This document shows, piece by piece, positions 30,017-32,684 of a DNA stretch of 33,032 nt; positions within the stretch are counted from its first letter, which is position 1; the number at the start of each line of letters is the position of its first letter. The position numbers and the translations under genes were made by a program. The stretch is from Anaerolineales bacterium (GTDB taxonomy: Bacteria; Chloroflexota; Anaerolineae; Anaerolineales; Villigracilaceae): the NCBI GenBank assembly GCA_016934715.1, contig JAFGSI010000081.1, positions 1 through 33,032 on the forward strand, read 5' to 3'. The notes under the pieces are model-generated. The model was not told the origin of the DNA. It worked only from the letters and a program-made list of their open reading frames with translations, and searched no databases.

Positions 30017-30113
30017 TGTGTCGTTGCGAGCCGCGCTCTATGCGCCGAAGCAATCCCCGAACAGATCAGGAGATTGCTTCGGCCCGGAAAAGCGCCGTGC
30101 CTCGCAACACACA
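30017..30113. repeat. REP-like imperfect palindrome
   Basis: The outer arms TGTGTCGTTGCGAG (30017-30030) and CTCGCAACACACA (30101-30113) are inverted copies with one extra base. The inner arms CCGAAGCAATC (30045-30055) and GATTGCTTCGG (30072-30082) are perfect. Such elements recur between genes in many genomes and fold into long hairpins. Only this copy is in the window. Confidence 0.75.
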
Positions 30114-30148
30114 AGAACGATCCCCCATAACTCGCACCAACACGAGCG

Positions 30149-30181
30149 CAGGCGGCCCATGCCAAAGACATGCGCCGCCTG
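30149..30181 (-). terminator. Hairpin downstream of the LuxR-type gene
   Basis: An 8-bp perfect outer stem CAGGCGGC (30149-30156) / GCCGCCTG (30174-30181), with an inner CATG/CATG pairing, lies 21 nt past the stop. It lacks a U tract, so its role as a terminator is uncertain. Confidence 0.4.
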
Positions 30182-30201
30182 TCGAATCTTGGGGACAGGA
30201 C

Positions 30202-31548
30202 CTACGGTGTGACCGTCAGTTCAAAGTAGAACGGCACGGGATCGGGGATCGCGTAGAAGGGGTCGAAGGTGATCCAGATGATGATCGGAATGACCTGCCC
30301 CACTTCGATCGGGGAAAGCACCCGGAAACCCCTCACCCGGTTGAGCAGGAAGATCTCCCCCTCCCCGGGACCGGAGCCGCCGCCGGCGAACGGCTCCATG
30401 TCGAACGCCAGCGTCTGGTCCGGGAACTCGACCTGGAGATCATCGAAAGCGGAGACGGGCGAGTTGGCCGGATCGGGCCCAAGCAGGCGCATCGGCCCGC
30501 TGGCGTCGACGTTGATCATCAGCTCCGACCGGCTCAGGACGGGGGTGACGGCAATCGTCACGTTGTCAGAATTGGTGATGGCATTGTCTGCGCTGGCGTA
30601 GTAGGGCATGGCCGTGGGGAGCGGACAGTTCTCGACCAGGAGATGGAATTCGAACGTCACCGGATCCGGGATGCCGACGTAATCGTTGAAGGTCACGGTG
30701 GAGGTGACCTGCACCGTCTGGCCCTCGATCAGCGGCTGGACCACGTGTAAGGACACCCCCTGCCCGAGATCATCGAAGTCCCCGATCTCGCCGCCCCCGC
30801 CCCCGCCGCCGAAGGGCTCCAGTTGCAGCGGCTGACCGTCCAGCGTGATGACGTGCCTGTCGCTGATGAAGATGGGCGGGATCTCGTTGTTCGGGAACTG
30901 GTCCGAGAAGCCGTCCGGGAAGGTGCCGTTGATGTTGAAGGTGAAGTCGTTGCAAACCAGGTGGCCGGTTGCTTCGAAGAGCATGCCATCCCTGGTGATC
31001 ATCGTCGAGCTGATGACCTGGTAGGACGGGGGCTCCGTGGCGGCGGTCTCACCGGCGGTCGGGGGGAGCGGCTCCTCGGTGGCGATGGTTTCGCCACGGT
31101 CCCGGAGCACGGACGCGGCTCCGACGATCAGGGTGATCGACAGTGCACCAGCGAACAGGATGAACAGGACACGCATCAAGATTCTCATGGGTTTCCTCCG
31201 CAGTTGAATTTGGACCCCGCCATTGTCGGCGGATTCGCCCGTCTTTTCAACTGCGGAATCCCGCAGCCCCCCGGGGGCCGGGGCACCTGTGGATTCCCGC
31301 AGGTCCCCCGCGGAGAGCTTCAGGACCGCCTCGGTGCGCGAGCTTACCCCCAGCTTGGCATAGATGTTGCTGAGGTGGAACTCCACCGTGCGATTGGAGA
31401 CGCCCAATGCCGCGGCGATCTGCTTGTTGCTCTTGCCCTGCAGCAACAGCTCGATGACTTCCTTTTCGCGGATGCTGAACATTTCGTCGGTCACCGAAAC
31501 AGGCTCTAAAATTCGTTCACCGGTGATGAACGGTGATGGACAGGACAT
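30202..31548 (-). CDS. LuxR-type HTH protein with membrane anchor and duplicated outer domain
   Basis: A 448-residue protein. A LuxR-type helix-turn-helix (about 24-80: SIREKEVIELLLQGKSNKQI, SNRTVEFHLSNIYAKLGV) is followed by a low-complexity linker and one membrane helix (about 121-147). About 300 extracytoplasmic residues then contain two tandem copies of a repeat ending PDPVTFEFHLLV and PDPVPFYFELTV. Each copy starts near a glycine-rich EPFGGGGG-type loop. This fits a one-component, membrane-tethered transcription regulator sensing an outer ligand. An in-frame ATG at 31188 has an excellent GGAGG 6 nt upstream, so a shorter secreted or anchored form is likely too. No site is seen for the first ATG (31548). 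Ligand and target genes are unknown. Confidence 0.7.
   Translation of the reverse strand: MSCPSPFITGERILEPVSVTDEMFSIREKEVIELLLQGKSNKQIAAALGVSNRTVEFHLSNIYAKLGVSSRTEAVLKLSAGDLRESTGAPAPGGLRDSAVEKTGESADNGGVQIQLRRKPMRILMRVLFILFAGALSITLIVGAASVLRDRGETIATEEPLPPTAGETAATEPPSYQVISSTMITRDGMLFEATGHLVCNDFTFNINGTFPDGFSDQFPNNEIPPIFISDRHVITLDGQPLQLEPFGGGGGGGEIGDFDDLGQGVSLHVVQPLIEGQTVQVTSTVTFNDYVGIPDPVTFEFHLLVENCPLPTAMPYYASADNAITNSDNVTIAVTPVLSRSELMINVDASGPMRLLGPDPANSPVSAFDDLQVEFPDQTLAFDMEPFAGGGSGPGEGEIFLLNRVRGFRVLSPIEVGQVIPIIIWITFDPFYAIPDPVPFYFELTVTP
31186..31199 (-). promoter_or_regulatory. Strong internal ribosome-binding site and ATG inside the LuxR-type gene
   Basis: GGAGG (31195-31199) lies 6 nt before ATG (31186-31188) in the same frame. 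The protein from here starts MRILMRVLFILFAGALS, a signal-anchor-like sequence. Confidence 0.6.
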
Positions 31549-31597
31549 TGTCTGGATGAATGGCGGATTATCAACACTGATCCCATTTGGTCTCCGT

Positions 31598-31774
31598 TCA
31601 TCTCCGGCGAATTTCAGGCCGAGGCACCTGGCGTGTACCGCCGACCGAGCCGCCCTGCTGGTCCGCCACCGTCGACCAGACCACCCGGTAGATGACCGGC
31701 TCGGCGATCATGCCGATCATGGTGAAGTAGTTCTGCGCCCGGTACCGGAACTGTTGCAGCAGGGCCAGCTTCAT
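31598..31774 (-). pseudogene. ABC-2 family permease, N-terminal remnant
   Basis: A 58-residue frame starting MKLALLQQFRYRAQNYFTMI and continuing AEPVIYRVVWSTVADQQGG, which reads like the N-terminus of ABC-2-type export permeases with an N-terminal amphipathic segment and first membrane helix. A full protein would be about 260 residues, so more than three quarters are missing. Its ATG overlaps the stop of the ATPase remnant (ATGA), the normal coupling of such pairs. Truncation is at about 31620, where unrelated sequence begins. Confidence 0.6.
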
Positions 31775-32024
31775 CGAGACCAGGTAGAAATCGACGGGCC
31801 GCTTCCTGCCGCCTCGGCACCTTTATTGGCGAAGACCTTCTCGATCACGTCCTCGATCGGCGGGTTCTCGACCGTCAGGTCATCGACCGGCTGTTCGGCC
31901 AGGATGCGGGCTGTGTGTAGGTGCGCTTGAACAGGCTCGTGGTGGCCGCTTTCAGCCCGGCCTCGCGCACCGGGACCTTGCCATGCCTGGAAAGCTTGTC
32001 GGTGGCGATCACTGGGGGAGTCAT
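31771..32024 (-). pseudogene. ABC exporter ATPase remnant (internally deleted, frameshifted)
   Basis: From ATG at 32024 the frame reads MTPPVIATDKLSRHGKVPVR then EAGLKAATTSLFKRTYT, like the N-terminus of ABC-2-type exporter ATPases. Near 31920 similarity jumps to another frame reading RILAEQPVDDLTVENPPIED then VIEKVFANKGAEAA, the C-terminal end of the same kind of protein. The Walker A, signature and Walker B regions are missing, so some 230 codons were lost by an out-of-frame deletion. It is followed directly by the permease remnant. Confidence 0.65.
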
Positions 32025-32048
32025 GCCGATCCTTTGGGAAGATCAGGC

Positions 32049-32684
32049 TCAAACCTGGAGTGTGAATACCCCGGCGCAGGCGGAAACAGGGCTATAGTCT
32101 ACCCGCAAACCGGCCTCCTGGATGGCCGGGACGGCCTCGTCAGCCAGCCAGTAGTATTCGTCCTCCCACTCGTCGCCGGCAGCGGATTTGACCTTATCCA
32201 GGGCGGATTGATTGGGGAAGGAAATATCAGCGATCACAATACGACCGCCGGGTGACGAGAGACGGGGGACGAGTGACGTTACGATACGGACCTTTTCGTC
32301 GAGGACGAAGTGATGGAAGACGTAGCCCGAGACGATGCGGTCGAAGGGTCCGGCCAGTTCGGGCGGCAGGTTGTCGCGCAGGTCGTGCAGGAAGAAACGC
32401 GCTGCGGGGAGTTTTTCGCGGGCCTTTTGCAACATCGGCAGAGAGAAGTCGGTGCCCCAGATTTCACAGCCCAGGGCGGCGAAGCGCAGGGCCAGGTTGC
32501 CGGTCCCGGTTCCCAGGTCCAGAAGGCGCATGCCGGGCCGGGCTTCTGCACGGGCGACGACCGTCTCCAGGGCGGCCGTGTAGCCGGCGAAGGGGAAGCC
32601 CGTGGTAGTCGGAACGGTCTGATCGTAGCTCTCGGCCCAGTCGTCGAAGTCTTCAGCGGGGAATGGATCTTGAGGGGTGGACAC
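32049..32684 (-). CDS. Class I SAM-dependent methyltransferase
   Basis: A 211-residue Rossmann-fold methyltransferase. The N-terminal DFDDWAESYDQTV is typical of small metabolite methyltransferases. LLDLGTGTGNLALRFA (about 54-69) is the SAM-binding motif I, WGTDFSLPMLQKARE motif II-like with acidic Asp, and FDRIVSGYVFHHF the motif IV region. The substrate is unknown. I use the GTG at 32684. A TACAAT box lies 7 nt upstream and no Shine-Dalgarno is seen, so it fits the leaderless pattern of other genes here. Confidence 0.88.
   Translation of the reverse strand: MSTPQDPFPAEDFDDWAESYDQTVPTTTGFPFAGYTAALETVVARAEARPGMRLLDLGTGTGNLALRFAALGCEIWGTDFSLPMLQKAREKLPAARFFLHDLRDNLPPELAGPFDRIVSGYVFHHFVLDEKVRIVTSLVPRLSSPGGRIVIADISFPNQSALDKVKSAAGDEWEDEYYWLADEAVPAIQEAGLRVDYSPVSACAGVFTLQV

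Follow-up and report, generated by a model that had tools for sequence, protein, structure and literature searches.

A membrane-tethered LuxR-type regulator gene of an Anaerolineales bacterium with a putative promoter nested in its own reading frame

The reading frame, its domains and its starts

The window analysed here is a stretch of 33,032 nucleotides from an Anaerolineales bacterium (contig JAFGSI010000081.1 of assembly GCA_016934715.1). A 448-aa open reading frame on its minus strand (30202-31548) contains no stop codon, including the segment between a helix-turn-helix (HTH) domain and a membrane helix. The protein and its long transcript are described by the following features.

30202..31494, minus strand: full-length product of ~430 aa from GTG 31494, with a LuxR HTH, a linker, a membrane helix and two outer repeats
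31321..31479, minus strand: LuxR/GerE-type HTH (Pfam PF00196, GerE, residues 24-76, E=2.9e-21)
31105..31188, minus strand: membrane helix, first part of the short product (hydropathy; model helix 2-33)
30610..31044, minus strand: outer repeat 1, strand-rich, with modest structural matches to Ig-like folds
30205..30609, minus strand: outer repeat 2, strand-rich, with modest structural matches to Ig-like folds
31547..31574, minus strand: promoter-like site TTGATA-N16-GACAAT, which by consensus match only is a candidate for driving the long mRNA

The solved sequence nearest to the HTH of the window is GerE (1fse, E=3.9e-10). A simple hydropathy scan (L021) places a strong hydrophobic stretch at residues 121-148 and a weaker second segment downstream, and the structure model of the protein (mean pLDDT 76.8, pTM 0.43, 3 sequences) shows a single long helix and two strand-rich domains. 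Aligned to each other, the two outer repeats are 28% identical across 134 columns (E=4e-9, a single comparison). Pfam, hydropathy, repeat alignment and structure model agree with the arrangement proposed by the sequence-only reading, in which a LuxR-type HTH is joined in frame to a membrane helix and two tandem outer repeats. A known DNA-binding domain and at least one membrane helix are thereby combined in one chain, as is characteristic of transmembrane one-component regulators. No autoinducer-binding domain was found N-terminal to the HTH; Pfam gave no match at E≤1 outside the HTH, which is itself N-terminal. We infer an N-in orientation of the membrane helix, and the full-length protein is presumably a membrane-tethered LuxR-type transcription factor with the outer repeats as its sensor. 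No family is claimed for the fold of the outer domain, for which the top Foldseek match had E=6.6e-5 at TM ~0.2 and the best VIA-align match (3fbq, Z=7.3) lies within the usual background.

Three start codons precede the HTH (31548, 31494 and 31482), none of them with a Shine-Dalgarno (SD) sequence. The gene had been taken to begin at ATG 31548. This start is probably too early, because the likely starts of the two congeners directly precede the HTH and because the promoter-like site overlaps ATG 31548; the true N-terminus is probably at GTG 31494 or ATG 31482. Directly upstream of the HTH gene, the minus strand of 31600-32060 holds, by eye, apparent remnants of an ABC-2 ATPase C-terminus and of its permease N-terminus in different frames, resembling a decayed transporter operon. 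The ATPase-side piece gave only a weak, unrelated match in Pfam.

Conservation of the fusion and of its internal start

Both congeners compared with the window genome (G001 and G002) retain the whole fusion, the frame being open over 499 and 447 aa, and have internal starts at the same place (CTGCGGAGGCAACCG-ATG and CGGCGGAGGCAACCG-ATG). The sequence 5' of the fusion differs among the three, being by eye a transporter remnant in the window, small DNA-binding-like ORFs in L012 and a cysteinyl-tRNA-synthetase-like end in L013, so that the fusion gene seems to change place. The outer part was searched in 61 genomes and matched at E≤0.01 in seven, including the window genome. The outer repeat also occurs in other proteins, since four of the matching genomes (G043, G028, G037 and G029) carry it with no HTH in frame; three of these four matches (L014-L016) are lipoprotein-like by eye.

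The HTH-linker module is recurrent in the Anaerolineae (Chloroflexota), where the outer or membrane parts fused to it are of many kinds, and a large family shares the layout seen in the congeners. A profile built from the three full-length sequences matched 77 of 152 family genomes at E≤1e-15, with many HTH-only matches, and an HTH-linker-helix profile matched 123 of 400 order genomes at E≤1e-18, many of these matches spanning the HTH alone. Among 63 loci from named genomes, the best 40 (L204-L243) all bear Chloroflexi or Anaerolineae names and the lower-ranked ones are mostly HTH-only matches from other phyla. The parts that follow the HTH in 10 scanned proteins were N_BRCA1_IG (1), CARDB (2), propeller-like DPPIV_N (2), DUF805 (1) and nothing known (4). 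Fusions of the HTH to a membrane helix that lack the linker motif are present in the order too, which argues that tethered LuxR proteins are a real design there. The 149-aa protein L230/L088 of Longilinea arvoryzae KOME-1 consists of a LuxR HTH and a C-terminal membrane helix, lacks an outer domain and has only the first of the dyads in its gene.

A second translation start, predicted to yield a product of ~329 aa devoid of the HTH, lies within the gene.

31195..31199, minus strand: internal SD GGAGG, by eye the best in the gene
31186..31188, minus strand: internal ATG, start of the HTH-less product (SD CGGAGGAAACCC-ATG, first base 31188)

The GGAGG stands six bases 5' of ATG 31188, in agreement with the earlier proposal that the best ribosome-binding site of this gene is internal. 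Synonymous-codon shuffling of the window gene alone leaves the SD unremarkable (p=0.18), and over the family the same procedure gave p<0.05 in 19 of 90 rows, so that for any single gene the evidence is weak. What makes the SD remarkable is its conservation, with GGAG invariant across 20 aligned members. An SD match of at least 5 bases before an in-frame internal start was found in none of 13 HTH-helix fusions without the linker motif, used as controls from the same order, versus 59 of the 77 other rows. The phase of the SD varies by subfamily (RRxP-M versus KExx-M) while GGAG remains constant; L037 has ATA in place of the internal start codon.

Members were divided by leader length (50 nt) into class I and class II. 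Primary starts carry an SD in 5 of 28 class I cases and in 33 of 50 class II cases, and a TANNNT six bases 5' in 11 and 5, respectively. This is a sign that class I long mRNAs may be leaderless, which may explain why the best-looking SD is internal, yet the window's own starts show neither SD nor TANNNT.

One gene with two products is the best reading, because both congeners retain the fusion together with the internal start and the layout recurs widely. A second product without the DNA-binding part had been proposed as a free sensor or decoy; the product itself stands as the favoured reading, but the word free does not apply, as the membrane helix is kept and the product would be anchored.

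The linker DNA, its open frame and split relatives

In the window, the DNA between the HTH and the internal start carries the following elements, and it looks like an operator with a sigma-70-type promoter.

31285..31304, minus strand: element 1, near-palindrome ACCTGCGGGAATCCACAGGT, possible second operator copy (class I members)
31251..31266, minus strand: element 2, dyad CTGCGGGATTCCGCAG, proposed operator adjoining the -35
31245..31250, minus strand: -35-like TTGAAA
31222..31227, minus strand: -10-like GACAAT, 17 bp from the -35 (generic promoter scan)
31198..31256, minus strand: 11-bp RNA stem CCGCAGUUGAA / UUCAACUGCGG of the long mRNA, linking the -35 region and the internal SD, of uncertain role

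The sequence-only reading treated the site as a ribosome-binding site. Its SD and start appear real, but the site is more likely a nested operator, promoter and ribosome-binding site. The general layout of the linker is a dyad CTRSGG-N4-CCACAG, TTGNNN, 17 bp, NANAAT, a leader, SD and start, and the dyad, the TTG, the 17-bp spacing, NANAAT, SD and start are conserved as DNA among the members compared. The hexamers of the window (TTGAAA-17-GACAAT) agree with the sigma-70 consensus at 9 of 12 positions, and a generic scan of 31100-31700 returned two promoter-like sites, one of them the linker site, against a shuffle mean of 0.2. The dyad behaves as an inverted repeat, pairing on average at 4.04 of 6 positions versus 1.52 at control offsets; a left half-site CTNNGG/TTNNGG occurs in only 67 of 89 members, and only 26 of 89 dyads pair at 5 or 6 of 6 positions.

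When 124 HTH rows were scored for the motif, its best place was within the ORF in 109, of which 90 scored at least 10, and past the ORF end in 15, of which six scored at least 9.5. The motif is missing in L039, and L088/L230 carries element 1 only. L088, being in the wrong phase, was left out of the codon-fixation counts, which reduced the 90 rows to 89. The codon alignment of the linker (71 rows, among which L129 is spurious) reads TCC ACA GTT, seven codons, NAN AAT. In the 89 in-phase members serine is encoded by TCC in 81 of 83 cases (19% elsewhere in the same ORFs), threonine by ACA in 73 of 73 (26%), alanine by GCA in 8 of 8 (25%), valine by GTT in 80 of 86 (31%) and asparagine by AAT in 86 of 86 (53%); binomial p-values for such counts overstate independence, because the members are related. 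The codon directly before AAT is NAN in 88 of 89 members versus 37% elsewhere in the linker, and encodes E, D, H, Y, Q, N or K. At the first -10 base the 90 fused rows have G 75 times, C 9 times, and A and T 3 times each, so that the consensus T is absent from 87, as expected if in-frame TAA or TAG must be avoided.

Nucleotide differences by codon position, summed over 51 pairs with equal-length linkers and 60-97% identity, were 394:201:1079 in the HTH and 543:459:525 in the linker. There is no visible amino-acid constraint on the linker, because its differences lack a third-position excess. A protein-level motif 'STVE..[ED]NG' was rejected, given the fixation of synonymous codons and the absence of codon-position bias. 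Integron attC sites, DnaA boxes and LexA-like boxes were dropped as resemblances only.

The linker could also act as RNA. Dual translation from one mRNA, with the internal SD yielding the short protein and the linker forming a hairpin that gates this SD, would fit the folding of region 31160-31330 (-87.8 kcal/mol, z=-4.2), where the 11-bp stem ends at the SD. It would also fit the long-mRNA regions of class I (mean z=-1.97, 12 of 29 below -2; short transcripts 0.29) and class II (mean z=-1.57, 21 of 54 below -2; short transcripts -1.01, 9 of 54), which fold beyond their shuffles. However, SD accessibility was the same as in controls with swapped upstream arms (p=0.88 in class I and p=0.2 in class II), and RNAalifold on the 20-member alignment paired element 1 with element 2 and did not recover the stem. 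SD sequestration was rejected as the main function on these two results. Moreover, a hairpin leaves unexplained both the fixed 17-bp TTG/NANAAT spacing and the TTGACA promoters of the split relatives described below, and RNA gating as the sole basis of the two products is unlikely. A known RNA family in the linker was likewise rejected, as the six Rfam matches at E≤10 in 30100-31900 all fall far below gathering. Two small hairpins between the -10 and the SD were seen in class II leaders (22 sequences, e.g. L042, L091 and L121), with 85.3% of cells paired versus 83.9% when shuffled and modest covariation (9 double-change cells versus 4.5; 8 of 500 shuffles as high).

Searched with nothing but the DNA pattern, 152 genomes gave 53 sites, spread over 42 of them, and the reversed pattern gave none. 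Among the 52 sites that were read, a short protein motif located an HTH in frame 0 at 45; four further sites (L155, L160, L163 and L268) coincide with the HTH-profile members L099, L121, L115 and L111, L164 is cut by a contig end, and 2 of the 52 (L182 and L202) have no HTH. None of the 52 has an HTH in a frame other than 0. The exact family pattern has no match in the window genome and its two congeners, because these read TCCGCAG. A class-level pattern search gave sites in 20 of 298 genomes, versus one with the reversed control. Eight of its 15 new sites lie in HTH-linker-DUF805-like fusions with one open frame, and 7 of 15 have no HTH nearby. L277-L280 and L285-L288, from other orders of the class, are HTH-linker-DUF805-like fusions with the complete motif, and DUF805-like membrane proteins could be a frequent partner of the HTH of this family. 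At L274:780 (minus strand) a perfect dyad CTGTGGATTTCCACAG is followed by TTGTCA-N17-TATAAT, with no HTH gene found nearby; this site is possibly another kind of promoter, or chance.

Over the 96 nt from TCC onwards, the 45 pattern sites contain no stop in 1440 frame-0 codons versus 64 and 107 in 1395 codons of the other two frames; frame 0 is open in all 45, the others in 7 and 3 of 45. A wider set of 62 distinct sites gave no stop in 1674 frame-0 codons versus 94 and 111 in 1624. The wider set is less frame-blind, many of its loci having been fetched by protein profiles, and the 45-site count repeats the test on pattern-only sites. An SD-start was detected in 50 of the 62, always in phase, and 12 had none by the rule used. 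Broken or out-of-frame cases are L097, L126, L152 and L229.

Eight relatives (L146, L147, L153, L184-L187 and L191) have an ORF that ends after the HTH, with related dyads and promoters between the genes. These ORFs measure 69-103 aa from stop to stop (129 in L191) and end a few codons past the HTH in L146, L147 and L184-L187. A TTCGGGAATCCGTAG dyad precedes TTGACA-17-TATCTT in L146, TTGACA-17-TAATCT in L147, TTGACA-17-TATTAT in L184 and TTGACA-17-TATTCT in L185, as well as, by eye, TTGACG-16-TATGAT in L186 and TTGCAA-16-TATTAT in L187. L153 (TAGACA-17-TATTAT, by eye) and L191 (TTGAAA-17-CATACT) have related dyads. In these split forms T is mostly present at the first -10 position, where it is rare in fused ones. 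An SD-bearing ORF comes next in all but L191, and six of these seven begin with a hydrophobic or signal-like segment by eye, L147 being the exception. In a tree of 111 HTHs (57 columns) six of seven split rows make up a single clade, whose position among the fused class I members is weak, and L153 groups with motif-less fusions. Short ORFs that end after the HTH and lack the motif were L040 (at a contig edge), L107, L141, L142, L188 and L189.

Relatives with a stop codon separating the two parts had been named as the sign of a chance read-through fusion. Such relatives exist, but they are not evidence of chance read-through, because their HTH is followed by a related dyad and by a promoter laid out alike, and because the fused forms keep the frame open to a degree that the other two frames do not approach. 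The corresponding alternative, of two ordinary neighbouring genes for a regulator and its target, an intergenic promoter that is open by chance and a fusion protein that is a functionless by-product, draws on these split relatives and on the linker without amino-acid constraint. It is quite improbable in view of the stop-free frame 0 beside mostly closed other frames, the lack of any off-frame HTH, the contrast in the first -10 base between fused and split members, and the motif-less HTH-membrane fusions of the order.

A second fused subfamily (L127, L131 and L135) carries another dyad, AGGGATWTTCCCCA, with TAACAT, TAGAAT and TAAAAT as the -10, 17 bp from the -35. Here the -10 is in codon phase 1, in which T cannot give an in-frame TAA or TAG, and this different phase separates the DNA signal from any protein motif. 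L292 and L293 show TAAGAT twice at 17 bp (by eye). The AGGGATWTTCCCCA subfamily is small, as its profile matched 6 of 400 order genomes. That another HTH subfamily carries another dyad is suggestive of binding of the dyad by the family's own HTH; it is possible that some other factor binds the dyad.

Very improbably, the dyad/TTG/AAT has no part in transcription and serves binding or recombination, for instance to swap outer domains behind a constant HTH, as the very different C-terminal parts behind the constant HTH-linker (N_BRCA1_IG, CARDB, propeller-like, DUF805) and the sequences upstream of the gene, which by eye differ between the window and its two congeners, might suggest. Against this, the motif is succeeded by an SD and a start codon in most members, and the split relatives have near-canonical hexamers at 16-17 bp.

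Proposed mechanism and comparison with known systems

The preferred reading, which we consider fairly likely, is that one gene gives two products and that the HTH-less, membrane-anchored one arises from the nested promoter, probably under control of the protein's own HTH. Two translation units would share one frame. The long mRNA would encode the tethered HTH regulator; RNA polymerase starting at the linker promoter (TTGAAA-N17-GACAAT) would make a short mRNA with leader, SD and ATG, translated into the membrane helix and outer repeats with no DNA-binding domain. The tethered HTH would read an outer signal and act on the dyad in its own gene, switching the nested promoter on. From the spacing, and assuming a start site 7 nt after the -10, the dyad centre is near -43.5, a placement like that of LuxR-type activators, which act at lux boxes, 20-bp dyads centred near -42.5. 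The HTH-less product may serve as feedback, competing with the full-length protein for the signal or for dimerisation, or may be the output itself. Transcription from the site, binding of the HTH to the dyad, the two products, activation rather than repression and the feedback role are all what we infer from the sequence comparisons.

To a design common to the Anaerolineae we give about even credence. In that design the linker would be spacer, operator and promoter at once, and the tethered HTH would switch the nested promoter in a one-gene feedback with an exchangeable outer domain. As a part of it, the linker would be constrained as DNA and by the avoidance of stop codons, not by its amino acids.

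If correct, this would be a membrane-tethered transcription factor that regulates itself inside a single gene, and a widespread, testable case of translatable regulatory DNA, with ~130 bases serving as linker, operator, promoter and leader. It would account for the internal position of the best ribosome-binding site in such genes. Many Anaerolineae genes may then encode a second protein overlooked by annotation, and targets could be predicted from the candidate operator that each HTH subfamily would have.

The ingredients are already known singly, namely tethered one-component regulators, LuxR HTHs and intragenic promoters; no description of their combination in one reading frame across many genomes of a bacterial class was found in the open-access literature searched. 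Transmembrane transcription regulators sense the outside and act on DNA from the membrane, and the ToxR/CadC-like ones likewise unite a DNA-binding domain, a membrane segment and an outer domain in one chain (PMC10269533). The window gene differs in its N-terminal LuxR/GerE HTH: 'LuxR' and 'GerE' are absent from the main text of that survey, in the consulted passages of which no mention was found of an operator, promoter and ribosome-binding site nested in linker DNA.

GerE (1fse) is a stand-alone LuxR-type HTH of ~74 aa, and the split relatives are likewise short ORFs; compared with GerE, the HTH of the window continues in frame into its apparent target gene. The dyad resembles lux boxes of the LuxR family in size and ends (ACCTG...CAGGT, element 1) and in its position adjoining the -35. 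Unlike the sites of LuxR activators, this putative operator is inside the coding sequence of the regulator itself, which has no autoinducer domain. SigI/RsgI of Clostridium thermocellum similarly combines a constant cytoplasmic module, one membrane helix and a variable outer sensor, but reportedly works through an anti-sigma factor, a separate sigma gene and proteolytic signalling, whereas the window gene has a DNA-binding domain and a predicted nested promoter. Intragenic promoters for shorter isoforms likewise place the starts of transcription and translation inside an ORF; the cases in PMC10653884 were created by recoding, whereas the arrangement described here has been kept in many genomes and is bound up with the reading frame of the regulator itself.
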